From Prevotella sp. (GTDB lineage Bacteria; Bacteroidota; Bacteroidia; Bacteroidales; Bacteroidaceae): 64,000 nucleotides of DNA. Positions within the stretch are counted from its first letter, which is position 1. The number at the start of each line of letters is the position of its first letter. Positions 2 through 63,279 of this stretch are shown here, piece by piece. The notes below the pieces were generated by a model that saw nothing but the letters and a program-made list of their open reading frames with translations, made no database searches and had not been told where the DNA came from. Location of the stretch: NCBI GenBank assembly GCA_017618275.1, contig JAFZUS010000009.1, forward strand, positions 1 to 64,000, read 5' to 3'. The position numbers and the translations under genes were made by a program.

Positions 2-2314
2 GGGAAACCCAACCAAGCTTTCTGGCAGAACATGGTCAAGAAGGAAAACCCCGACAAACTGGTGGGCAATAAGGTATGCGACTTTCGCAAGCCGACCGTT
101 CTGGACGGCTGGATGCTCAAACTGTTCCCCGATGAAAACGGACTGACGCTCGACCAGGTGCCTCACATCCATGAGATGCCATCGGAGCGCGTGTATGTTG
201 ATTTCAGATACCAGGTTATCGACATTGCCAATGGTAACGTCATTGTCGATACGCCGATGGAGCTCATTGCAGGCTATATCGGAACGGAAGTGGACACCCT
301 GACGCATGCCCTCACGCCCAAGATGGGTTGGATGGTGCGACAGATAGAGAGCAACGAAAAGATAGTAGAGAGTCTCAAGAAAAAGGCTGAAGAAGATTCT
401 TTCGATGGCCTCGATTTACGGGTGAACAGAGTGCCTGAGCACCTCGCCCAGTTGAAGTACATCAAGAGACTGACCCTCAACTTCACCGACAAGGTGGCGT
501 TGCCCGAGTGGTTCTACGGCCTGCAGATAGACAATCTGACCATAAAGGGTGAGATGAGCGATGAACAGGAAGCTGCCATCAAGAAACATTTCCCCAAAGC
601 TGATATCAGACGTATTAGAAAAACTCTGATCGTCACCAACGAGCCGCTGATCATCGTCGATAGTGTCATCTTCAAGGGTAAGCTGTCGGACATCGACCCT
701 GCCACCATCAAGTCGCAGCGCGTTTTGAAGGATGCCGCCGCAACGGCCGTCTATGGATCCCAAGGTGCAAACGGTGTGATCGAAATCACCACCAAGGGCT
801 TCGTCAAGCAGCGAGCAGAAGAACCATCTAAAACTGCGATAGCCTTGAAGGCTGGCGACAAGATCAGCGGCACGTTGAGCGACGATATGGGTCCGCTGAT
901 GGGTGCCACCGTCTGCGAGATTGACGCCAGTGGCCGTATCGTCGGATCGGCCATCACCGATAATAATGGCCAATTTACCATGAAGGTTCAGAATCCTGAG
1001 GATATCCTCCACTTCAGTTATGTGGGTATGAAGACCACCAAACTGGCTATCGACAAGACGGAATACAAGATCAAGTTGCAGCCGGTACCAACCCTGCAAG
1101 ACATATTGAAGAAGAGGCAATCCGGACCAAGCACGCTGCCCATCCCGCAGCGAGAGATTTACTACAAGGATCTCGATCAGATCATGGAGGAACGCGGAAT
1201 GGTGAAAGCGGAAGATTTGGAACTGGAAGGTGACCCCGTGATATCGAACAGGAACAACCCCCGTGGCCTGATCAGTCTGACGGATGAGGAACAGGCTTTG
1301 GTGACATCTGTCAACGACCTTGGTTTCAATCTGATCCGCACAATCTCGTTACTGGATCCCAAGAGCATCCTTCTGTCGCCCTTGGGCATGACCTTCGCCC
1401 TCGGACAAATCAACAACGGGGCTGCTGGTGAAACGAGGAAACAGATCAACCAGGTGTTGGGCTGTAAAGACAAGGAAACTGCCAAGATAAATATGTTCTG
1501 TCGTAAGATGCTCACTGAGGCGCCCCAACTCGACAAGACGACCCAGTTGGAAATCACCAACGAATTCATCTCGCCTAAGAGTTTCACCCCCAAGCCAGCC
1601 TTCACGCAGGTGGCCAAAGACAATTACGACACGAAATTCGAAACGTCGGAGTCAGAGGCGTTGAAGTTTACCCTGAAGAACACCATCGACTTCAAGGGCA
1701 TCTGGGCGGATAAGTTCCGTAAGACGAACACCCATGACGAGGTGTTCAGATGTGAGAGCGGCATGGAGACGACGGTGCCGATGATGAATCAGTTCCACCA
1801 GTTCTTCTATACCGAGAACGACCTCTGTCAGGCGCTCTGCCTGCCCTATAGCAATGGTGCCTACCAGATGATCGTCCTGTTGCCCAAGGAGGAAAAGACC
1901 GTCTGCGATGTGGCGGGGTCGCTGACGGCAGACAGTTGGAAGAAGATGTATGCTCAGATGCAACGAATCGATGTCGATGTGAAGTTGCCCCGCTTCGAGT
2001 CGGAGTCAGAGGTGAATCTCGCTGGCACGATGACGCCACTCATGCCCAACGCCTTCAGGATGAATAAGGCGGATTTCTCCCATCTCTTCGAAGTGAAATC
2101 CTGCATTGACAGGATCAAGCAGAAAGGTCACATCAAGGTTGATGAGACGGGCGCTGAGGCATCCGTCATCACTTCCTTGCAAGGAGACCTTGGGTCTGTG
2201 AAAACAGTACAGCCTGACACCGTCCGCTTCTACGCCAATCATCCGTTCCTCTATTTCATCAGGGAGTGGTCAACCGGCACCATCTTCTTTATCGGACAAT
2301 ATATGGGAATATGA
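2..2314 (+). CDS. Mosaic exported protein: DUF4419 / plug-like / carboxypeptidase-regulatory / serpin (5' truncated)
   Basis: The reading frame is open from nucleotide 2. Its first residues (GKPNQAFWQ) match an internal stretch of the next gene (GNPNQKFWQ), so the true start lies outside the window and the Met at 32 is internal. Domain order is: the C-terminal part of DUF4419 (to about nt 600); a short TonB-plug-like module around 640-800 ending in GANGVIEITTKG but with no barrel after it; a carboxypeptidase-regulatory-like beta-sandwich (about 845-1090); and a full serpin (about 1270-2310). The serpin call rests on the hinge VDETGAEASVIT, the block HPFLYFIREWSTG and an overall length near 340 residues. 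Serpins inhibit serine or cysteine proteases by trapping. An outer-surface or periplasmic location is inferred from the paralogues' signal peptides. The stop overlaps the next start as ATGA. Confidence 0.85.
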   Translation, partial: GKPNQAFWQNMVKKENPDKLVGNKVCDFRKPTVLDGWMLKLFPDENGLTLDQVPHIHEMPSERVYVDFRYQVIDIANGNVIVDTPMELIAGYIGTEVDTLTHALTPKMGWMVRQIESNEKIVESLKKKAEEDSFDGLDLRVNRVPEHLAQLKYIKRLTLNFTDKVALPEWFYGLQIDNLTIKGEMSDEQEAAIKKHFPKADIRRIRKTLIVTNEPLIIVDSVIFKGKLSDIDPATIKSQRVLKDAAATAVYGSQGANGVIEITTKGFVKQRAEEPSKTAIALKAGDKISGTLSDDMGPLMGATVCEIDASGRIVGSAITDNNGQFTMKVQNPEDILHFSYVGMKTTKLAIDKTEYKIKLQPVPTLQDILKKRQSGPSTLPIPQREIYYKDLDQIMEERGMVKAEDLELEGDPVISNRNNPRGLISLTDEEQALVTSVNDLGFNLIRTISLLDPKSILLSPLGMTFALGQINNGAAGETRKQINQVLGCKDKETAKINMFCRKMLTEAPQLDKTTQLEITNEFISPKSFTPKPAFTQVAKDNYDTKFETSESEALKFTLKNTIDFKGIWADKFRKTNTHDEVFRCESGMETTVPMMNQFHQFFYTENDLCQALCLPYSNGAYQMIVLLPKEEKTVCDVAGSLTADSWKKMYAQMQRIDVDVKLPRFESESEVNLAGTMTPLMPNAFRMNKADFSHLFEVKSCIDRIKQKGHIKVDETGAEASVITSLQGDLGSVKTVQPDTVRFYANHPFLYFIREWSTGTIFFIGQYMGI

Positions 2315-4062
2315 AAAAAAGTTTTATCATCATCGTGCTGGCACTCATCGCCAGCCTGGCTACAGCGCAGACAAAATTTACGGTTGACGAAGACCTGCCC
2401 GCCCCCAAGCAGACCATCACCAAATACAACGATAAGTTTATTATCGCACAGATTATCAACACCTTAGGGGTGTCTCAAGAAGATTATCGCGTGTTGAAGA
2501 CCAGTTTTGAAGGTCAGCAACTGGCCCACATAGGCAAGGACAACTTCTTCAAGTGCATCGTGCAGGCCTATGCCGACCACCGTCCGCTAGTGCTGTCGCC
2601 CGACATGGTGTGGCTCGTCATCAGTCAGGGGTTCTCCCGATATGTGAATGCCCATGCTGAGGAGATGCGCGACCTGCTGGTGTTTCATGAGGGGAAGATG
2701 GAACTCGTGACCCTCTCCAATAATAATATCTTCTCACCCAGTGCCGACTGGGAACTCCTGCTGAATGACTTCTCCACCTGCATTGCCAACAATACCAAGG
2801 GTGAGTTGGCCGACCTGATGACGGCCGACTTCACCACCACCGGCATCACCGAGCGCATCGCCTCGCAGATCTCGCTGATGGATGTCGTCAAGCATTATTT
2901 CATCTATACCAGAATCTCAGCCGCCTGTGGCATCCCCTCGATCACACTCAAGGGCTCACCCTTCGACTGGCAAAAGGTGCTCGACAAGGCCCGCTGCCTG
3001 AGGAAATACAATCTGGAAAAGTGGTCTGACGATCTGGTGGCCATCCTAAAGGAGTTTGTCGAAGCCTCCAAGGGTAACCCCAACCAGAAGTTCTGGCAGG
3101 GTATCGTCAATAAAAAGCGTGTTGACCAACTGAAAACTGACAATTCGTGTGATCCTGATCCTGCAAAGATGACCAAGTTGGATGGCTGGTTTCTGAAGTT
3201 CTTCCCCAATAATCAGGGTGAGACACCCGACAAGGTGGAGTGGAACCATGATATGCCTTCGGAGATGGTGCACGTGAATTTCCGGCAGGTACTCACCGAC
3301 CCCGCTACCGGCGTGCCGCTTGACACCATCCCCATCCAGTTGTGGGCAGGTTTCGTGGGCATTGAGGAAGATGCCAAGACGTACGCCCTCACGCCCAAGA
3401 TCGGCTGGCTGGCACGTATTGGCGATGAGGAATCCGATGAACTCGGACGTTATAAGGAACTCAACAAGTATGGGGGCAATATCAATATCGATTTGAGCAG
3501 AGGTCAGGAAGTGCCCGTTGCGCTCTCTAAGATGGAGCACATCCGTACGCTGCATCTCCATTTCTGGCACAGTCCCGTCGTCATCCCCGAATGGTTGGAC
3601 AAGATCCCCATCGACGAACTCCACATCATGGGCGAATTCACCGACGAAAAGGAAGCCCAGTTGCGCCAGCGGTTACCGAATGTCATCATCGAAAGAGTTG
3701 ATAACATCGTCAAGTCGCTCAAGCCGCTGCCAGCAGACCAGAAGACGGAGAAGCCTCCTAAACCGAAGAAGATGAAAGCCGGCGACAGGATCAGCGGCAC
3801 CGTGAGCGACGAATTGGGGCCCCTGGTTGGTGCTACCGTCATGGAGGTTGACGAGGAAGGTCGCAACGTGGGCTATGCCACCACCGACATCAACGGCCAG
3901 TTCAAACTCAAGATCGTGAATCCCCGACACCTGATCAGTGTCTCATACGTTGGATTGAAGACCGTAACGCTCCTCATCAAAAGCGAACCGTATAACGTCA
4001 TGATGCAGCCGAGTACGACTTTAGAGCGTGTCCCTATTAATTCACAAATCAGAGTCTATTAA
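2311..4062 (+). CDS. Exported DUF4419 protein with C-terminal carboxypeptidase-regulatory-like domain
   Basis: This 583-residue protein starts at the ATG at 2311, which gives a clean signal peptide (MKKSFIIIVLALIASLATAQ) and an ATGA overlap with the upstream gene; the upstream in-frame Met at 2266 lies inside that gene's serpin. DUF4419 covers about residues 30-480 (for example SPDMVWLVISQGFSRYV). DUF4419 has no established function. A beta-sandwich related to the carboxypeptidase D regulatory domain follows (about 489-570, ISGTVSDELGPLVGATV) and the protein ends there, with no plug-like or serpin part. It therefore looks like a serpin-less sibling of the first gene. It is probably co-transcribed with its neighbours. 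The partner or substrate cannot be read from the sequence. Confidence 0.85.
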   Translation: MKKSFIIIVLALIASLATAQTKFTVDEDLPAPKQTITKYNDKFIIAQIINTLGVSQEDYRVLKTSFEGQQLAHIGKDNFFKCIVQAYADHRPLVLSPDMVWLVISQGFSRYVNAHAEEMRDLLVFHEGKMELVTLSNNNIFSPSADWELLLNDFSTCIANNTKGELADLMTADFTTTGITERIASQISLMDVVKHYFIYTRISAACGIPSITLKGSPFDWQKVLDKARCLRKYNLEKWSDDLVAILKEFVEASKGNPNQKFWQGIVNKKRVDQLKTDNSCDPDPAKMTKLDGWFLKFFPNNQGETPDKVEWNHDMPSEMVHVNFRQVLTDPATGVPLDTIPIQLWAGFVGIEEDAKTYALTPKIGWLARIGDEESDELGRYKELNKYGGNINIDLSRGQEVPVALSKMEHIRTLHLHFWHSPVVIPEWLDKIPIDELHIMGEFTDEKEAQLRQRLPNVIIERVDNIVKSLKPLPADQKTEKPPKPKKMKAGDRISGTVSDELGPLVGATVMEVDEEGRNVGYATTDINGQFKLKIVNPRHLISVSYVGLKTVTLLIKSEPYNVMMQPSTTLERVPINSQIRVY

Positions 4063-4072
4063 AACCAAAACA

Positions 4073-7000
4073 ATGACCCACATACGAACATGGATGCTTG
4101 CCGCCATCCTCACCATTTGCGGCACCATGAACGGCTTCGCCCAGCAGCCAGAGGACTTGCGGGGCATACCCGGCACCTGGTTCTTTCTGGCCAAGTTGGA
4201 CAACCCTGTCGATACGCTCCTGATCCTCCCGTCGAACATCCAACCGCCAAAGAAAGTGATAGCGTTGGTGAAGGACGAACATGGATTGTTCATGTTCAAC
4301 ACCCGACTCACCGAGCCATGCAACTATAGTATTTTCACGCCCCCGAATGTTGACATCGACGATTTCTTCTCTTTCAACGTCCATGCCGAGCCCGGCGAGG
4401 TGCTCTCGGTGCAGGGCTGTTTTGATGTCAACAAGCCCGTCTATGGTCTCACCTTCCGCGGCTCCCGCTACTACAAGGATTACACCGAGGCCTTCATGCG
4501 CCTGAATGCTCCACCTGAGGAAGAGAACGATGAAGAAAGCGACTCCGTGCTCATCGTCATCGACGGGAAGATGCTCCCGAAGTCCATGAACCCGCAACTC
4601 CTGAATCACATCCCCAGGCGATACACCGGTGAGGACGAACCCAAGGGCGTGCTTCAGCAGTCCATCGCCGAGGGCAAACTCAAGAGCGATCTTCAACCAT
4701 ACTTCTTTAAGCGCAAACAATACATCGACAAAATCAGGGCTCTTGTTGATGTGGCTGCAGCGGCGATCTATGGAAGAATCGGAGCCTACGGTGCTATTGA
4801 AATCACCACCAGACCGTTCCTGTCCGTCGCACCACTTTCACCTGGCGAGACAAAAGCCCGTCGCCTGACGTACCTTCTGGATGCCTATCCCGGTAGCCAC
4901 AATTTCGGTTCCTATTCGTCTTTCAGGAATGACGGCTTCATCTATAACGGTGAAAGCCATGCCTTCGATCCTGATCTGTTTGACACGCCTGTCAAGGAGC
5001 ATTTCTTCGGACAGATGACGAGCCAACATGGCCATATGACTCACGAATACTATGGCCCTGTGGGCAGCGATACCCACGGCATCTATGTGCCGCTTATCCG
5101 CGAGGTAGAGGTAGAAATACCAAGCATCGTCGATGAGGCCCATTTCGATTCCATCGTCAACGACATCCGACAAGCCGCCAGGCAGGCCGACAAATCCATT
5201 GAGCGAGCCGACAGTCTCGTACGTCTAGCGTTCATCTTCGGGGGAAAAGTCAAAGAGGGCAAACCCCATTCCTACATGACCCACCCGCTAAAGCAGGATG
5301 GTTCCATCGTCAAGGAAAGCAGATACTATTTCACGCCCGATGCCAAGGCAGAATCCTACTGGTGGGCTGAAGCCTACTATAAATCCACCAGTCCCCGGCG
5401 ATTAGTCATGAACCTGATCTCCGTCGATAAGCTCTACGCCTCCGACTGCCCCGCCATCCTTGAAAACCGCCGTCACATCGAAGGTACGGTACTGGATGAT
5501 GATAACGGGAAGCCCGTCGCCGATGCCCTCGCCTATATCGAAGGCACCATGGGGACTTACGATGTCGGAGGGGTCAAGACAGACAACAAGGGGCATTTTG
5601 CCCTTTGGTTGCCATACCGCCACCAGAATGTCAGAGTAAGAAAGTCCGGCTACAAAGATGCTTATTGGATCCAACCCGCTGACACCGCTTTCACCATCAG
5701 CCTGATTCCTGAGACATCTCCAAAGACTCAACCATCACCCATCAAGGAGGTCATTTACGAAGGGGAAGGCACCGTGAAGGCTGGCGACACGATCAGCGGT
5801 ACCGTGAGTGACGATATGGGTCCGCTGATGGGTGCCACAGTCTGCGAGATTGCCAGCAGTGGACGTATCATCGAGTCGGCCATCACCGATAATAATGGGC
5901 ATTTTGTCATGAAGGTTAAGAATCCTGAAGACCAACTCCGCTTCAGTTATGTGGGTATGAAGACCATCAAACTGGCTATCGACAAGAAGGAATACATGAT
6001 CATCATGGAGTCGTCAGTGATTTCTCCTTTTCCGCGTTCTACTGATGGGCAAAGCGGCTACAGATTTATACCAGTTGAGGGTCAAAGACAAGTCAATGGT
6101 AAGGGACTGCCCATCCCGATGAGAGAGGTGTCCGATGGCGTTGAGCCTATCTCAATGGCGGAATTTGAGGCACTCGGAATGGTGAAAGCGGAAGATGCTG
6201 AGAATAACCCGCTTGTCAAGGTCAACTTGTCGGATGAAGAGCAGGCTTTGGTGACATCTGTCAACGACCTTGGCTTCAACCTGTTTCGCAAGGTAGGATC
6301 TGTCAACGACCTTGGTTTCGAACAGTTCCGCAAGGCAGGGGCCGACGAGAGTATCCTGCTGTCGCCCTTGGGCATGACCTACGCCCTGGGACTGATCAAC
6401 AACGGGGCTGCCGGCAAGACGAGGAAGCAGATCAACCAGGTGTTGGGCTGCGACGACATAGGAGCCGATAAAGTCAACAGTTTCTGTCGCAAAATGCTCA
6501 CTGAGACACCCAGACTCGACAAGTTGGCCAAGATGGAGATCACTAACGAATTCTACTCGCCTAAGGATTTAACCCCCAAGCCGGCCTTCACACAGATGGC
6601 TAAAGACAGTTATGACACGCAATTCGCGGAGTCGGAGTCAGACCTGTTGACTTTTACTCTGGTGAACACCATTAATTTCAAGGGCATCTGGAAGGACAAG
6701 TTCCTGAAGGGTGACACAGAGGACGAGGTGTTCAGAGGTGAGGACGGCAAGGAGTCGATGGTGCCGATGATGAATCAGACAAGCCGATTCTACTATACCG
6801 ACAACGACCTCTGTCAGGCGCTCTGCATGCCCTATAGCAATGGCGCCTATCAGATGATCGTCCTGTTGCCGAAGGAGGGTAAGACCGTACAGGAGGTGGC
6901 CCAGTCGCTCACGGCCGACAGTTGGAAGAAGATGTATGACCAGATGAGGGAAGTCCGTGTCGACGTGAAGTTGCCACGCTTTGAGTCGGAGTCAGAGGTG

Positions 7001-7309
7001 AATCTCACCGGTATTATGTCGGCACTCATGCCCAATGCCTTCAGTATGAATAAGGCGGATTTCTCCAATCTCTTCGATGTGAAATCCTGCATCGCCAGGA
7101 TCATGCAGAAAGGCCACATCAAGGTCGACGAGACAGGCACTGAGGCAACTGTCGCCACTATTTTGCAAGGACGTATTTCGGGGCTGGATGTTGTACCGCC
7201 GCCCCCAGCAATCCCCTTCCACGCCACACACCCATTCCTCTATTTCATCAGGGAATGGTCGACTGGCACCATCTTCTTTATCGGACAATATACGGGAACA
7301 GAAGGGTGA
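4073..7309 (+). CDS. Mosaic exported serpin with plug-like and two carboxypeptidase-regulatory-like domains
   Basis: This 1078-residue protein starts at the ATG at 4073, which begins a signal peptide ending near GFAQQ; it lies 10 bp after the previous stop. Residues 25-220 are unrecognised and replace DUF4419. A plug-like module follows (about 223-250, AYGAIEITTRPF), then two carboxypeptidase-regulatory-like domains (about 467-546 and 567-646) and a serpin (about 720-1076) with hinge VDETGTEATVAT and block HPFLYFIREWSTG. Parts of the second regulatory domain and of the serpin are nearly identical in DNA to the first gene, which indicates a recent segmental duplication or gene conversion. A 14-residue segment at the start of the serpin (SVNDLGF.) is duplicated in tandem. 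The P9-P12 hinge residues are small, as in inhibitory serpins; the target protease is unknown. Confidence 0.87.
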   Translation: MTHIRTWMLAAILTICGTMNGFAQQPEDLRGIPGTWFFLAKLDNPVDTLLILPSNIQPPKKVIALVKDEHGLFMFNTRLTEPCNYSIFTPPNVDIDDFFSFNVHAEPGEVLSVQGCFDVNKPVYGLTFRGSRYYKDYTEAFMRLNAPPEEENDEESDSVLIVIDGKMLPKSMNPQLLNHIPRRYTGEDEPKGVLQQSIAEGKLKSDLQPYFFKRKQYIDKIRALVDVAAAAIYGRIGAYGAIEITTRPFLSVAPLSPGETKARRLTYLLDAYPGSHNFGSYSSFRNDGFIYNGESHAFDPDLFDTPVKEHFFGQMTSQHGHMTHEYYGPVGSDTHGIYVPLIREVEVEIPSIVDEAHFDSIVNDIRQAARQADKSIERADSLVRLAFIFGGKVKEGKPHSYMTHPLKQDGSIVKESRYYFTPDAKAESYWWAEAYYKSTSPRRLVMNLISVDKLYASDCPAILENRRHIEGTVLDDDNGKPVADALAYIEGTMGTYDVGGVKTDNKGHFALWLPYRHQNVRVRKSGYKDAYWIQPADTAFTISLIPETSPKTQPSPIKEVIYEGEGTVKAGDTISGTVSDDMGPLMGATVCEIASSGRIIESAITDNNGHFVMKVKNPEDQLRFSYVGMKTIKLAIDKKEYMIIMESSVISPFPRSTDGQSGYRFIPVEGQRQVNGKGLPIPMREVSDGVEPISMAEFEALGMVKAEDAENNPLVKVNLSDEEQALVTSVNDLGFNLFRKVGSVNDLGFEQFRKAGADESILLSPLGMTYALGLINNGAAGKTRKQINQVLGCDDIGADKVNSFCRKMLTETPRLDKLAKMEITNEFYSPKDLTPKPAFTQMAKDSYDTQFAESESDLLTFTLVNTINFKGIWKDKFLKGDTEDEVFRGEDGKESMVPMMNQTSRFYYTDNDLCQALCMPYSNGAYQMIVLLPKEGKTVQEVAQSLTADSWKKMYDQMREVRVDVKLPRFESESEVNLTGIMSALMPNAFSMNKADFSNLFDVKSCIARIMQKGHIKVDETGTEATVATILQGRISGLDVVPPPPAIPFHATHPFLYFIREWSTGTIFFIGQYTGTEG

Positions 7310-7320
7310 GGCAGGCAGTT

Positions 7321-7998
7321 ATGAAACAGAAGTATTTGGTGATTGTGCTCTTGGGACTGATAGTGGTGTCGGGAGCGACGAGTTTCAAGAGTTATCAGGC
7401 CACAGAGCGGTTGGTAGAGGATGACATGAGCCAAGCCTTGGCATCGGCACTCGCAGAACAACAGAACGATGTGATCAGCGCCGACACCATCCGGGTGTTC
7501 AACAGTTATCTGCAACTGGAACAGTTGCGAGGTCATGCGATGCTGGCAGTGGATACCCGACAGAAGGGTTTCAAGTGCGTGGCAAAATGCTCCACTGCCA
7601 CCATCTTTGCAATGTCTGACCAGCGACCCGCCTCCATACTCTGGGCGCTCACTTTGATATGGGCAGGATTCTGTTTTTTAAGAGTCAGGAGACAGGAGTC
7701 AGGAGTCGGGACTTTTGGAGGACTGTATCTTGCAGAGTCAGAGGGACGTTTCTATGATGCTGAAGGTAGGCTGGTAAAACTGACCCCTATGCAACAGCAG
7801 TTGATGGAGATGTTCTTCCGTTCGTCGTCGCACTCGTTGACGAAGACGGAGATCTGCGACGCCCTATGGCCCAAGAAACCCGATGCCAGCGAAACGCTCT
7901 ACACCCTCATCCGTCGCATCAAACCCGTCATTGAGGCACATTCCGACCTACGCATCGAAGTAGATAGGGGCAGGTCTTATGAACTCAGGATCAAGTAG
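7321..7998 (+). CDS. Membrane-anchored winged-helix transcriptional regulator (ToxR-like layout)
   Basis: This 225-residue protein has a hydrophobic N-terminal segment (residues 4-22), a roughly 80-residue loop, a second membrane segment (about 103-122, ILWALTLIWAGFCFL) and a C-terminal OmpR/PhoB-type winged helix (about 142-225, KLTPMQQQLMEMF ... TLIRRIKPVI). With two membrane spans, both the N-terminus and the DNA-binding domain would be cytoplasmic and the loop periplasmic. The start at 7321 lies 11 bp after the serpin gene, and in-frame upstream Mets fall inside that gene. It probably belongs to the serpin operon and senses an envelope signal. Three palindromic repeats begin just after its stop codon and are candidate binding sites. 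Confidence 0.82.
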   Translation: MKQKYLVIVLLGLIVVSGATSFKSYQATERLVEDDMSQALASALAEQQNDVISADTIRVFNSYLQLEQLRGHAMLAVDTRQKGFKCVAKCSTATIFAMSDQRPASILWALTLIWAGFCFLRVRRQESGVGTFGGLYLAESEGRFYDAEGRLVKLTPMQQQLMEMFFRSSSHSLTKTEICDALWPKKPDASETLYTLIRRIKPVIEAHSDLRIEVDRGRSYELRIK

Positions 7999-21126: not shown

Positions 21127-21179
21127 AACTTAGTTTTAACAAACAAAACTGTCAACCAAAATCAGTACACAACAGTGAA

Positions 21180-21465
21180 ACCTTGCCCTGAATTCAGTTC
21201 ATACTTTTGCACGGGGTGCAAAACCTTGCCCGAGATTTGGTTCATACTTTTGCATGGTGGGGTATGATATGCCAGAAATTCTGGCAGACTTTTGCACGGT
21301 GGGGTAAACCTTGCCCGAGATTTGGTTTGGACTTTTGCACGGTGGGGTAAATGTTGCCAGAAATGCCGGCAGACTTTTGCACGGGGTGCATAACCTTCCC
21401 CGAGATTCAGGGCATACTTTTGCACGGGTGGCAAAACCTTGCCCGAGATTCAGGGCAGACTTTAC
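21180..21465 (+). repeat. 42/43-bp tandem array, about 6.5 units
   Basis: The core ACTTTTGCA recurs at 21203, 21246, 21288, 21331, 21373 and 21416, with a degraded seventh (ACTTTA) at 21459: spacings of 43, 42, 43, 42, 43 and 43. Two unit types occur: one with CCTTGCCCGAGATT and one with TGCCAGAAA. Several units are hairpin-forming (TTTTGCAC-GGG-GTGCAAAA at 21205; TGCCAGAA-A-TTCTGGCA at 21273). This array and the IS tail account for the long gap between orfB and the deacetylase gene. Minus-strand frames across the array are repeat translations, not genes. Confidence 0.85.
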
Positions 21466-22719: not shown

Positions 22720-24468
22720 ATGGAAATGAAGAAGATATGGAGTTATAGGCTGACAGGTTTATTGGTTATTGGTTATTGTTTATTGGTTAGCCCCGTCAGG
22801 GCGCAGTACGACGTTGTTCCCCTGCCTCAGAGCATCGAGTTGCAGAAGGGTGAGCCGTTTACGTTGTGGAATGATATAGTGCAGATTGTGGCACCAGAAG
22901 ACTTGAAAGGAGAGGCTGCTTTCCTGCAGGCCTATCTCAAGGATATCACTGGCTGGACGCTACCCATCGCTCAGAAACGTGAGAAGGGAAAGACTTACAT
23001 CGAACTCTCCGTATCTCCGAAGGTGAAAGCCCAAGAGGGTTATGTCCTGACGATTAATAAGAAAGGCATCACCATCGTGGGTGGAAGCGCTGCTGGTGTC
23101 TTCTATGGCATCCAGACGCTCCGCAAGACCGTTGTCAACGTACGACAGTCACAGCACGTCACGGAACTCGCGAATCATCCTTCCGTGTCCTCTGCGACGC
23201 CTCCATTCAACCTCCTTTATCCCGTCGTGATTACCGATGCACCTCGCTTCTCCTGGCGAGGCATGCACCTCGACTGCTCGCGTCATTTCTTCCCCGTGGC
23301 GTTCGTGAAGAAGTTCATCGATCTGTTGGCGCTGCATAATATGAACGTGTTCCACTGGCACCTCACCGACGATCAGGGCTGGCGCATCGAGATTAAGAAT
23401 TGGCCCCGTCTCACTACCGTTGGTTCACAGCGCAGTGGCACCATCATTGGCACCAACTCTGACCTCGACGATGGCATCCCCTACGGTGGCTACTATACGC
23501 AGGCTGAACTCCGTGAGATAGTCGCCTATGCTGCTGCCCGTCACATCACCATCGTGCCTGAGATCGATATGCCTGGTCACATGCTTGCTGCCCTTGCCGC
23601 CTATCCTGAACTCGGTTGTACGGGCGGTCCCTATCAGGTGGGCCACTATTGGGGCGTGTATAAGGATGTGCTCTGCGTGGGCAATCCCCGCACGTATGAG
23701 TTTGTGCAGGATGTGCTGACAGAGGTGATGGACATTTTCCCCTCCGAAGTCATCCACATCGGTGGCGACGAGACACCCACAGAGAAGTGGAATCAGTGCG
23801 AGAAATGTAGAGGTTTCTTCGCTAATGAAGCCTTCGTTCATGAAGCCCTGATAGCGAGAATTGGCGGGGTCCCGCCAGAAGAGCAGTCTTTGCGTCCCGC
23901 AGATAATTATCAGGCGTACTTCACTGAGCGTGTCTTTGATTTCCTCGCTTCCAAAGGCCGTCGCGCCTTAGGATGGGATGAGATCCTCGACGGTGCGCCA
24001 CAGGATGCGATGATCATGTCGTGGCGCGGCTCTGCCCCTGGTGCGAAGGCTGCTGAGGCAGGTCACGACGTGGTGATGTCACCAACAACCCACTGTTATT
24101 TCGACTACCAGCAGGTGAAGGATACAGAGTTTGAGCCCAGCCGTTGTGGAGGCTTTATCCCCATCGAGAAGGTTTATCGTCTTGATCCCGCTCCAGATAG
24201 TCTTTCCGTGGAGGCCCGCAGTCATATCCTTGGCACGCAGGCCAACCTCTGGACGGAGTATATGACCAACGAGCAGATGGTGGAGTATCAGGCGCTGCCC
24301 CGTATGTCGGCCCTCGCAGAGGTGCAGTGGACGCAGCCAGGGCGCAAGAACTATCAAGCCTTCCTCCAGCGCCTCACCCGCTTCACGAATATCCTCGAAC
24401 AATATCATTACACCTACGCCAAGCACCTGTGGCCTGAGCGACAAATCCCCAACAGATGGCAGTTCTAA
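22720..24468 (+). CDS. Exported GH20 beta-N-acetylhexosaminidase
   Basis: This 582-residue protein has a signal peptide (to about residue 28), an N-terminal GH20b-like domain (to about 165) and the GH20 TIM barrel. The catalytic Asp-Glu pair is in HIGGDETPTEKW (about 345-352) and further substrate residues in FHWHLTDDQGWRIEI. It releases terminal GlcNAc/GalNAc from glycans in the periplasm or at the surface. The signal-peptide core is encoded by TTATTGG-type repeats (22760-22790), whose copy number could change frame. It is probably co-transcribed with the deacetylase upstream, and it overlaps the next gene by 13 bp. Confidence 0.92.
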   Translation: MEMKKIWSYRLTGLLVIGYCLLVSPVRAQYDVVPLPQSIELQKGEPFTLWNDIVQIVAPEDLKGEAAFLQAYLKDITGWTLPIAQKREKGKTYIELSVSPKVKAQEGYVLTINKKGITIVGGSAAGVFYGIQTLRKTVVNVRQSQHVTELANHPSVSSATPPFNLLYPVVITDAPRFSWRGMHLDCSRHFFPVAFVKKFIDLLALHNMNVFHWHLTDDQGWRIEIKNWPRLTTVGSQRSGTIIGTNSDLDDGIPYGGYYTQAELREIVAYAAARHITIVPEIDMPGHMLAALAAYPELGCTGGPYQVGHYWGVYKDVLCVGNPRTYEFVQDVLTEVMDIFPSEVIHIGGDETPTEKWNQCEKCRGFFANEAFVHEALIARIGGVPPEEQSLRPADNYQAYFTERVFDFLASKGRRALGWDEILDGAPQDAMIMSWRGSAPGAKAAEAGHDVVMSPTTHCYFDYQQVKDTEFEPSRCGGFIPIEKVYRLDPAPDSLSVEARSHILGTQANLWTEYMTNEQMVEYQALPRMSALAEVQWTQPGRKNYQAFLQRLTRFTNILEQYHYTYAKHLWPERQIPNRWQF

Positions 24469-27498: not shown

Positions 27499-27561
27499 CA
27501 ATAACCCTGCCTTATTGCGCAATAACCCAGCCTTATTTGAGAATAACCCGTCCTTATCGTC
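27499..27561 (+). repeat. Three 21-bp tandem repeats (AATAACCC family)
   Basis: Units start at 27499, 27520 and 27541 with an exact 21-bp period; the core is AATAACCC(T/A/G)(G/T)CCTTAT. The same unit, reverse-complemented, makes a four-copy array at 63201-63279. The block lies about 45 bp upstream of the efflux-operon promoter. Confidence 0.85.
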
Positions 27562-59788: not shown

Positions 59789-61137
59789 AGTATGCTCTTT
59801 TTGAAGAATTTCTCGATATTGTTCAGTTTCGCCTCGTGACAGAATACCATCACAGAGTCGCCAGCCTCTATCTGCGAGTTACCATTGACGAGCATGCCCA
59901 CACCGTTGCGTACCAGTCCGCCGATGGTTGCCCCCATGGGAAGCCCAAGGTCTTTTACGGGCCTCTTGGTTACCTTCGATCCTTCTGCTGCCGTGAACTC
60001 TGCCACTTCCGCATCAACGAGCATCAGCGAACGCAGGTTGTCCACGTCTGCCTCCAGCATCATCTGGAAGATGTGACTGGCTGCAATGGTCATTTTGTTG
60101 ATGATGGTACCGATATCCAGTTCCTCAGCCATCTTCACATAGTCGAGGTTCTCCACCATCGCAACAGTTTTGCGGACACCGAGTCGCTTGGCTGTCAGAC
60201 AAGCCAGGATGTTTGTCTCTGCGTTGCCGGTAAGAGCCACGAAAGCCTGGGTGTTGCGGATACCTTCTTCCTCTAAGAGTCCTAAGTCGCGTCCGTCACC
60301 ATGAATCACCATCGTATCACTGTCGCCAAGCAGTTCGTTGAGTTTCTCGCAACGCTCAGCGTTCTTTTCGATAATTTTCATGTTCATATAGTCGGGAGCG
60401 GTGAGGGCTGCACGGACAGAAGTCTTGTCGCCTCCCATCACGATGACGTTTTTCACGTCGGCATAATGCTCTTTGCCCACAATCTTACGGATATAGGGAA
60501 TATATTCCTGAGTAGTCATGAAATAGGCAAGGTCGCCTACACGCAGTTCATCGAGACCGCCCGGGATGATGGTTTCTTCGCCACGCTTGATAGCCACAAC
60601 ATGGTAGGGGTCGTCAGGGCCACAGAGTTGGCGCAGGGGCTGGTTCAGGATCTCTGCCGTCTCGCGTAGTTTGATACCGAGCAAGGTCAGTGCTCCGTCA
60701 TGCACATCCCAGCGCTGGCGCACCCACGACAGTTTCAGACCATTATTGATGTCGATGGCTGCCAACACCTCAGGATAGATGAGAGAATCGATGCCCATGT
60801 TCTTGAAGAGTTCCTTGTTCTGTGGACTTAGGTATTCGTAGTTGTCGATACGGGCCACAGTCTTCTTGGCTCCTAACTGGTGTGCAATGATACAGGCAGT
60901 TAGGTTTGTCGACTCATCTGGTGTGACACCAACGAAAAGGTCGGCATGTTGTGTACCTGCTTCTTTCAAGGCCTTGATACTGGTGGGTGAGGCGTTGTAG
61001 GTCATCACGTCGTATTCGGTGAGTGAACTCAGCCTTTCCTCATCGTCATCGATGAGCACACAGTCCTGATGCTCCCGCGACAGCAGCTTCGACAGGTGAG
61101 TTCCTACGGCACCTGCACCGACAATGACAACTTTCAT
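59782..61137 (-). CDS. trkA: Trk potassium system regulatory subunit TrkA
   Basis: This 451-residue protein has two RCK halves. The first has the Rossmann motif VVIVGAGAVGTHLSKLL and a TrkA_C domain (about 145-225); the second begins NVIVMGGDKTSVRAAL (about 230) and carries its own TrkA_C (about 375-450). It binds NAD(H)/ATP and gates TrkH. The start overlaps the end of the dxs C-terminal frame by 4 bp (ATGA) and its end overlaps trkH. Confidence 0.94.
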   Translation of the reverse strand: MKVVIVGAGAVGTHLSKLLSREHQDCVLIDDDEERLSSLTEYDVMTYNASPTSIKALKEAGTQHADLFVGVTPDESTNLTACIIAHQLGAKKTVARIDNYEYLSPQNKELFKNMGIDSLIYPEVLAAIDINNGLKLSWVRQRWDVHDGALTLLGIKLRETAEILNQPLRQLCGPDDPYHVVAIKRGEETIIPGGLDELRVGDLAYFMTTQEYIPYIRKIVGKEHYADVKNVIVMGGDKTSVRAALTAPDYMNMKIIEKNAERCEKLNELLGDSDTMVIHGDGRDLGLLEEEGIRNTQAFVALTGNAETNILACLTAKRLGVRKTVAMVENLDYVKMAEELDIGTIINKMTIAASHIFQMMLEADVDNLRSLMLVDAEVAEFTAAEGSKVTKRPVKDLGLPMGATIGGLVRNGVGMLVNGNSQIEAGDSVMVFCHEAKLNNIEKFFKKSILW

Positions 61138-61436
61138 ATCTTCTTTATTGCTTTGATGATGCTTTCTTTATCTAACCCGACAATCTTCTGCAGTTCAGAC
61201 ACGGAGCCGTGCTCCACGAAGTCTGTATCAGGCATGCCTAATCGGATCACTTCCGGATGATAGCCGTGGTCGTTCATCCATTCCAGTACGGCAGAACCGA
61301 GACCTCCGGTCCTGACACCGTTCTCAACGGTGATGACACGCTGGAACCGTTCTGCCACCTCTTGCAGGATGGACTCGTCGATGGGCTTTAGGAAACGCAT
61401 GTCGTAGTGGGCAATTGTGCATTGTGCATTGTGCAT
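61134..61436 (-). CDS. dxs: C-terminal part of DXS, in a different frame from the N-terminal part
   Basis: This 100-codon frame contains the missing end of [16 protein letters not shown], then the C-terminal transketolase domain ([20 protein letters not shown] ... DFVEHGS). It is shifted relative to the upstream part at the ATGCACA heptamer tract. Its first ATG (61436) is supplied by the tract itself. It could be made by re-initiation or not at all; if the tract had one or four copies it would be fused in frame to the rest of DXS. Confidence 0.85.
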
Positions 61437-63028
61437 TGGTCTATTGCCTCTGCCACATCATTGCCGATGGGACCGATAGAGAGAACAGCAGCCTCCTTGC
61501 CATCACGCAGTTTGCGGCCAGTACCCACCTTGATCTCCTCCAACGGACAGCGCCAGTCCTGTAGCACACCACCACCTCTCGGATAACGGATTACGAACGG
61601 CCCCTTGTCGGGGAGTTGTGCCGTATACATCAGCCGGCGCAGTTCGTGCTCGTCCATCGGTGACGAGATGGTCATATTGGGGATGGGGCGTAGGGCCGCC
61701 AGGTCAAAGGCACCATGATGGGTCGCCCCGTCTTCACCTACAATGCCGGCACGGTCGAAACAGAAGACCACATGCAGGTTCAGTAGCGCCACATCGTGGA
61801 TGATATTGTCGAATGCCCTCTGGGCAAAGGCACTGTAGATATTACAGAACGGTATCAGTCCATCCTTCGCCATACCGCCTGAGAATGTGACGGCGTGGCC
61901 CTCGGCGATGCCGACGTCGAAGGTGCGCTCCGGCATTTCCTTCATCATGATGTTCATCGAACAGCCTGAGGGCATGGCAGGTGTCACACCTACAATCTTT
62001 GGGTTCTGTTTAGCCAGTTCCAGAAGGGTGTGTCCAAATACATCCTGATATTTCTGGGGTTTGTTGGGATCTTTGTCCACAATGCGCTCACCCGTTTCGG
62101 GGTCGAACTTACCGGGGGCATGCCATGTGGTGACATCCTTCTCTGCTGGGGCATAACCATGTCCTTTCTGCGTATGAAGATGCAATAGTTTAGGCCCTCT
62201 CATCTCCTTCATCTGTCGGAGGATACGTACCAGTTCTTTCACGTTATGTCCGTCGAACGGACCGAAGTAGCGGATGTTCATGCCATCGAAGATGTTCTGT
62301 TGATGGGAGATGGCACTCTTCAGCGCGTTCGAAAGTCGGATGAGCCCCTTCCGGCGGTCATCTTCGAGCATACCTCTGCTGTGCATCCATTTCGAGGCCT
62401 TGAAGCGGATGGCATTATAGGTCTTGTTGGTGCTCAGGTTCAGTAGGTATTGCTTCATGCCGCCCACCGAACGGTCGATGGACATATTGTTGTCGTTGAG
62501 GATGATCAACAGGTCATTGGGACTCGACGACACGTTGTTCAGACCCTCGAAAGCCAGTCCGCCGCTCAAGGCACCGTCGCCGATCACAGCCACCACATGC
62601 CTGTCCTCTTTGCCTTCCAACTTGGCTGCTACAGCCATACCGAGGGCTGCAGAGATACTGTTTGAGGCATGTCCGCAGGCAAAGGTGTCGTATTCGCTTT
62701 CGGTGGGAGAGGGGAATGGTTTCAGTCCGCCCAGTTTACGGTTGGTACAGAACTGCTCGCGCCGTCCGGTCAGTATCTTGTGACCGTATGCCTGATGCCC
62801 CACATCCCACACAATACGGTCTTCGGGGGTGTTGTAGACGTAGTGAAGGGCAACGGTAATCTCTGCCACGCCGAGGCTAGATGCCAGATGACCGGGATTC
62901 ACCGATAGTTCCTGAACGATGTCCTGTCTTAATTCATCGCATACCTGAGGCAGTTCTTCGACCTTCAACTGGCGTAGGTCTTCCGGATATTGTATTTTAC
63001 TTAATAGTCTTAAATTTTCTTGTTCCAC
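61388..63028 (-). pseudogene. dxs: 1-deoxy-D-xylulose-5-phosphate synthase, N-terminal 546 codons, frameshifted at a heptamer tract
   Basis: DXS makes the first intermediate of the MEP isoprenoid pathway from pyruvate and glyceraldehyde-3-phosphate. The frame has the TPP/metal motif [16 protein letters not shown] ... NDNNMSI and [12 protein letters not shown]. It loses homology after AEAIDQ and stops at 61388, while the normal continuation is in another frame. The break coincides with three copies of ATGCACA. I place the start at the GTG at 63028, because a longer reading from TTG (63055) would begin inside the -7 element. It may be phase-variable, mis-assembled or non-functional; dxs is normally essential when MEP is the only isoprenoid route. 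Confidence 0.85.
61416..61436 (-). repeat. Three-copy heptamer ATGCACA tract in dxs
   Basis: Units TGTGCAT (plus strand) occur at 61416, 61423 and 61430. Seven is 1 modulo 3, so copy number sets the frame: n = 1 or 4 joins the two dxs frames, while the present n = 3 does not. Each unit carries an ATG on the minus strand, in successive frames. Confidence 0.92.
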
Positions 63029-63052
63029 AGCATCAAAGTTGTATAAACTTTG

Positions 63053-63060
63053 CAAAGATA
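63053..63060 (-). promoter_or_regulatory. -7 element of the dxs-trkA-trkH promoter
   Basis: CAAAGATA on the plus strand is TATCTTTG on the minus strand, 24 bp upstream of the proposed GTG start. No good -33 element is visible at the expected position. Confidence 0.6.
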
Positions 63061-63200
63061 CGCTTTTATTTTGAAATTATGATTCTTTTCTGTTAAAAAC
63101 GATAGTTTTTCCCTTTTTTCGGCCATATTTTTTGTTTTTTACCCCCTTTTTCCTCTTTTTTCTTATTTTTTTGCATGTGAATCAAAGCAATGGTTCTTAT

Positions 63201-63279
63201 CCAATAAGGCAGGGTTATTTCCAAATAAGGCAGGGTTATTTTCCAATAAGGCAGGGTTATTATCCAATAAGGCTGGGTT
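63201..63279 (+). repeat. Four 21-bp tandem repeats (reverse complement of the 27499 family)
   Basis: AATAAGG starts at 63203, 63224, 63245 and 63266, an exact 21-bp period; the unit is CCAATAAGGCAGGGTTATT. It is the reverse complement of AATAACCCTGCCTTATTGC in the array at 27499-27561. It lies in the divergent gap between dxs and panE, about 25 bp upstream of the panE promoter. Confidence 0.88.

Follow-up and report, generated by a model that had tools for sequence, protein, structure and literature searches.

We analyzed a stretch of 64,000 nucleotides (nt) from Prevotella sp. (GenBank assembly GCA_017618275.1, contig JAFZUS010000009.1, positions 1 to 64,000; hereafter, the window) and found that its dxs gene, encoding DXS, which catalyses the first step of isoprenoid synthesis, is split between two reading frames at a tandem array of the heptamer ATTGTGC. 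The array comprises 3.6 copies with 100% matches (Table 1), and on the dxs strand it is read as three copies of ATGCACA at positions 61416-61436. We tentatively attribute the split, with somewhat less than even confidence, to slow change in the copy number of the heptamer within a tolerant loop of the protein, such that out-of-frame alleles likely still work, probably as two chains made by translational restart. On this reading, the cell tolerates a split that arose by accident as the heptamer expanded across the genome, and no dedicated switch is involved. It looks like repeat expansion rather than a switch because other housekeeping genes are interrupted by this heptamer too, as described below.

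The N-terminal part of dxs scored above the curated cut-off of TIGR00204 (616.5 bits versus 465.95), and the C-terminal part alone scored below it. A single open frame across all three DXS domains was not present at the dxs locus of the window. The preliminary description of this DNA, made from the letters alone, had placed the two halves in different frames exactly at ATGCACA x3, and the separate frames of the two TIGR00204 matches bear this out. It had also calculated that one or four copies would join the halves. This arithmetic holds: the stretch encoding SIGPIGN to HYDMRF is 50 nt in the window, that is, 2 modulo 3, and natural in-frame relatives include loops of 36 and 57 nt, besides other lengths. 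Shuffling the letters of the window 20 times gave a mean of 0 exact period-7 arrays as long as the one observed, and an array of such length is therefore not expected by chance. Upstream of dxs, about four copies of a 21-nt unit of the TCCAATAAGGCAGGGTTATT type are present at 63192-63279, and a related unit is present at 27499-27557.

Table 1. Features of the split dxs locus in the window.
Feature	Position	Strand	Description
dxs N-terminal part	61388..63055	-	555-amino-acid (aa) open reading frame; TIGR00204 positions 1-511; domains I and II, plus first strand and helix of domain III; stop TAA 61388-61390
dxs C-terminal part	61134..61436	-	100-aa open reading frame in the other frame; remainder of Transketolase_C (domain III); TIGR00204 positions 521-613
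Heptamer array, ATTGTGC x 3.6	61414..61438		25-nt period-7 run; overlap of the two dxs frames
ATG of the C-terminal frame within the array	61434..61436	-	Candidate restart codon, 46 nt ahead of the stop of the N-terminal frame
Second ATG of the C-terminal frame (MRFLKP)	61398..61400	-	Candidate restart codon, 10 nt ahead of the stop of the N-terminal frame

The SIGPIGN-HYDMRF stretch was taken from 142 loci of 141 genomes of the genus and from 80 named loci, the two sets overlapping; dxs was matched in 145 of 150 genus genomes, and four partial matches were left out of the 142-locus set. The stretch was in frame (0 modulo 3) at 141 of the 142 genus loci and 79 of the 80 named loci. The out-of-frame loops were that of the window in the former set and that of a locus designated L086 (43 nt) in the latter. 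The plainest common form was 36 nt, and the commonest lengths were 57 nt in the 142-locus set and 48 nt in the 80-locus set. Period-7 arrays were present in eight of the 142 loops, compared with a shuffle mean of 0.01; period 9 was found in four and period 8 in one, with no other period from 4 to 12. Among the 80 named loops, three had period 7 and two had period 9. The period-7 units were unrelated between loci (ATTGTGC in the window, GGAGTCA-type in L018 and CTCTCAT-type in L038), and across the genus the domain III loop repeatedly hosts period-7 repeats of unrelated sequence. Linkers of the GGAGTCA type, collected from metagenome proteins in three protein searches, were 23, 30, 37 and 44 residues long, in steps of exactly three heptamers, as expected from changes by whole units with selection for the frame. 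The in-frame relatives P0032 and P0241, which carry the window's own linker type, have 19 residues in the loop.

When intact P0032 was aligned to DXS sequences of solved structure, the array-coded residues fell after the first helix and before the second strand of the C-terminal domain, a position occupied by no more than a short turn in E. coli-type DXS. The array thus occupies the alpha1-beta2 loop of domain III and the cut lies within Transketolase_C, so the N-terminal chain retains domains I and II whole. The AlphaFold model of P0032 was poor overall (mean predicted local distance difference test score 55), and we used domain III alone, where the score was mostly about 80. In this model, a helix predicted at residues 528-544 runs into the heptamer-coded residues, followed by a turn and then by a strand from residue 550.

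The second split gene, at L086, belongs to the metagenome-assembled genome (MAG) RGIG7923 from water buffalo rumen and, by matching coordinates, lies in the genome designated G324 in our set. The N-terminal part of its dxs is 96% identical to that of the window. It carries the same ATTGTGC array but in two copies (18 nt perfect), and it is split in the other register. Another dxs was not found in G324, which is 80% complete. Across the genus, where dxs was matched in at least 384 of 398 genomes, a short C-terminal frame was present among the matches listed in G000 (107 aa) and G324 (99 aa) alone, the next shortest being 557 and 593 aa. In another protein, P0093 (598 aa, without Transketolase_C), the frame changes at the same loop, beside a 9-mer-like linker. 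A tree placed the window and L086 as sisters with support of 41/34; a tree of the N-terminal part only grouped the window with L085 (83/92), a grouping with a p-AU of 0.17 when tested with the former tree. The window and L086 may be sisters, a relation that these trees neither show nor reject. Free-standing C-terminal proteins (at least 347, of which 120 were inspected) were discarded as evidence of splitting; several start at the linker methionine of an intact relative, and contig edges would give the same starts. A 103-aa free-standing DXS C-terminal protein, P0149, occurs on eight contigs of up to 24.9 kb and may represent a natural split that recurs in a further species.

A search of the window's own genome (92% complete) recovered a single dxs, as the two pieces of the window locus. 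This was the check for another copy that the preliminary description had proposed; given the completeness, a second dxs may have been missed. Dxr was present, and HMG-CoA reductase was not found in the same genome. Thus, dxs should be needed. The ratio of nonsynonymous to synonymous substitution rates (dN/dS) in the C-terminal part of dxs was 0.051 between the window and L086 (at dS 0.86) and 0.056 between the window and L085, compared with 0.025, 0.059 and 0.076 for three intact clade pairs. Comparisons with the more distant L090 and L091 gave 0.065-0.126, and pairs with L088 are inflated by its altered C-terminal end. The C-terminal part does not appear clearly relaxed in either split lineage. 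For cysS, also split in the window's genome, dN/dS of the C-terminal part was 0.025 against L344 and 0 in intact pairs; the values for its N-terminal part were spoiled by indels and were not used. Purifying selection on the C-terminal parts of both genes is still strong.

ATTGTGC behaves as a heptanucleotide simple sequence repeat, being a tandem 7-base unit that is dispersed and more frequent than expected by chance. A 17-base pattern of the heptamer, with overlapping matches counted, had 33 matches in the window's genome, 41 in G324 and 0-6 in eight other relatives. A 21-base pattern was present in five of 150 genus genomes, including the window's, which has eight three-copy sites and none of the reversed pattern. 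Inverted array pairs about 90-115 nt apart turned out to consist of independent arrays, located in spacers, in signal peptides and at the starts of genes, and we therefore do not invoke a mobile element or miniature inverted-repeat transposable element.

The heptamer interrupts further genes in both genomes. In the window's genome, a two-copy array interrupts cysS, whose C-terminal part lies in a 76-aa frame. In a survey that matched at least 359 of 398 genomes, the cysS frame was at least 496 aa in the other genomes among the matches listed, except in G245, G339, G215 and G057, whose frames of 183-282 aa may be short because of contig ends. Among the 30 best-match loci, the cysS loop was in frame at 29 and carried period-7 linkers at 12, with no other period from 4 to 12. 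A TonB receptor gene is split at three copies in the window's genome, whereas its ortholog in G324 forms one frame with seven units. Two copies likewise interrupt ispD of G324 (near position 389 of L328, G324:C255:1-900), whereas ispD of the window's genome lies in a 256-aa frame. Among the 18 of 20 genomes matched, ispD was short only in G324 (96 aa) and in G013, where the 127-aa frame lies close to the start of a contig; weak paralogs accounted for G131 and for two second matches. With ispD, another gene of the methylerythritol phosphate (MEP) pathway, G324 has two genes of this pathway split. Further, in both genomes the lipoprotein gene adjoining the TonB receptor gene and its likely signal peptide appear, by eye, to be in different frames.

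Arrays inside genes were also assigned by eye, leaving aside those in spacers, gene starts, contig ends and unassigned frames. Eight were in frame, three out and one probably out in the window's genome, and nine, two and one, respectively, in G324. In-frame arrays are favoured, not required. In the two genomes together (loci L071-L084 and L310-L332, besides dxs), with some orthologous pairs among the arrays, those internal to proteins were read by eye as hydrophilic MHNAQCT in 16 of 16 cases and those in signal peptides as hydrophobic IVHCALC in eight of eight. The orientation of the arrays seems to be selected by protein context.

We propose that gain and loss of whole repeat units, presumably by slippage, would shift dxs out of frame and that out-of-frame alleles would persist since they still work, the pieces probably acting jointly. 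The C-terminal part would be translated, probably by restart at an ATG that lies in the array or directly follows it. The preliminary description had suggested the ATGs of the units as restart sites, and, as far as the sequence can indicate, the C-terminal-frame ATG in the window array is such a candidate. Comparable candidates lie 23 nt ahead of the stop of the N-terminal frame in cysS of the window's genome and 38 nt ahead in ispD of G324. Among the options that the description had offered, a tolerated split accounts best for the data; its products would then function as two chains.

Several observations weigh against this proposal. L086 has no C-terminal-frame start in its array, and its N-terminal frame stops no more than 10 nt short of where the C-terminal part ends; local restart therefore does not fit L086. 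The C-terminal part of the TonB receptor would be without a signal peptide. IspD would be cut in the middle of a domain, where two-chain function is a large assumption. Further, in-frame arrays outnumber out-of-frame arrays by about 17 to 5 (7 with the probable lipoprotein pair), which implies limits to the tolerance of breaks. Had the split arisen very recently, the C-terminal part would be equally conserved. Finally, three contigs of G324 start or end at arrays, which leaves room for assembly error.

An error of assembly or consensus, in which heptamer units were dropped and the living genomes are in frame, is a rather unlikely alternative. Both genomes are fragmented, into 213 contigs for the window's genome and 360 for G324, and intact dxs is the rule. 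Further, the dxs and TonB receptor arrays of the window's genome are perfect 25-nt runs, as collapse at k-mer lengths (k) of about 21-25 could leave, and are less safe in this respect. In contrast, the perfect runs of L086 dxs (18 nt), cysS of the window's genome (19 nt) and ispD of G324 (17 nt) are all shorter than the usual k, and perfect arrays of 28-30 nt were retained in both genomes. Two assemblies are split in the same gene, and their halves are correctly joined. The preliminary description had listed an assembly error among its options; we consider it disfavoured because the L086 array, split at the same place, is too short for collapse at k of 21 or more.

Phase variation, in which units are gained and lost during growth so that populations mix on and off alleles of dxs and the assembly caught the off state, we regard as unlikely. 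The window array has the form of a contingency locus: a coding repeat whose unit of seven is not a multiple of three and whose copy number sets the frame. This array type is out of frame at two and at three copies, and relatives have an in-frame linker of 57 nt. The C-terminal parts of dxs and cysS remain conserved, and the TonB receptor, of a kind common among phase-variable genes, is split in the window's genome and in frame in G324. However, the arrays are short and appear to change slowly. When 11 orthologous stretches were aligned (eight against G324, one of them also against G222, two against G119 and one against G352), seven were unchanged in length, three had changed (by one, two and four units) and one was mixed, although dS in dxs was about 0.8. 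Such constancy between species argues against fast switching by these arrays. If dxs, cysS or ispD is essential, cells in the off state would not be expected to make up most of a sample, and no within-species pair of alleles was found among the loci compared. Phase variation as the preliminary description stated it was thus not supported, the more so as the heptamer splits other housekeeping genes.

We consider it improbable that heptamers are frame-neutral, that is, that ribosome re-pairing or restart within the array lets the genes of essential DXS, CysRS and IspD host any copy number. This is suggested by codons that recur every 7 nt and by the openness of all three frames of the array; re-pairing between the recurring codons would, speculatively, serve both registers. 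In the translational bypass of T4 gene 60, ribosomes resume at a matching downstream codon, whereas here the codon spacing of the array alone would permit it.

Decay or truncation of dxs, with the N-terminal part alone sufficing or the gene no longer needed, also appears improbable. The N-terminal part holds domains I and II whole, and the products of L086 and P0093 would carry a nonsense tail replacing most of domain III. Against this stand the lack of clear relaxation in the C-terminal part, the presence of Dxr and the failure to find HMG-CoA reductase or a second dxs in the genome searched. Programmed ribosomal frameshifting was rejected because dxs is off by 2 modulo 3 in the window and by 1 in L086, and the two species would need different shifts.

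Other features of the window were noted alongside these results. The neighbouring trkA and trkH match their own families across nearly their full length, and the closest named relatives of the genome are Prevotella MAGs from ruminants. A TTATTGG array of 4.4 copies (22759-22789) is in frame in the hydrophobic part of an apparent signal peptide (MEMKKIWSYRLTGLLVIGYCLLVSPVRAQ). A GAGTCAG array of 4.3 copies (7682-7711) is in frame within a 284-aa frame, where it separates a likely membrane helix from a C-terminal part that is likely to bind DNA. An imperfect tandem array with units of about 42-43 and 85 nt lies at 21178-21463. Positions 2-7309 hold three successive frames of 614-1094 aa, two of which have similar C-terminal parts, serpin-like by eye.

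The genes dxs, cysS and ispD are essential, and repeats with a unit indivisible by three would be expected to be purged from such genes. Nevertheless, heptamers unrelated to one another are found repeatedly in the same DXS and CysRS loops across the genus; two genomes have lost the frame of such genes, with the downstream halves of dxs and cysS still conserved. If the cell tolerates and rescues such breaks, the view of frame robustness would change; if not, heptamer families would be causing a systematic and unnoticed error in rumen genome assemblies. Both outcomes bear on gene calls in many MAGs.

Among the matches listed in the open-licence literature, no paper addressed heptamer arrays in the dxs, cysS or ispD genes of Prevotella. 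In its passages on such repeats, PMC4679880 cites a survey that ranked heptanucleotides as the most abundant repeat class in most genomes, and reports TAACTGA arrays in Beggiatoaceae, cyanobacteria and five Bacteroidetes. Like the ATTGTGC arrays, these are dispersed, low-copy tandem 7-base units concentrated in particular genomes, including those of some Bacteroidetes. As described there, most TAACTGA arrays of the Maribeggiatoa genome immediately precede start codons, whereas here unrelated heptamers lie inside the same DXS and CysRS loops and the frame is lost in two genomes. The arrays resemble phase-variable contingency loci, as outlined in PMC2651432, in being coding repeats whose copy number sets the frame. 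They differ from the loci outlined there in affecting housekeeping genes and not surface structures alone, in being short and in apparently changing slowly between species. Finally, according to the part of PMC7661550 that concerns it, the split-gene transketolase of Carboxydothermus hydrogenoformans works as two chains. DXS is likewise an enzyme of the transketolase group, and would function as two chains in a similar manner; however, the split-gene transketolase type, as presented in that part, is cut between the PP and Pyr domains, whereas dxs is cut inside Transketolase_C.
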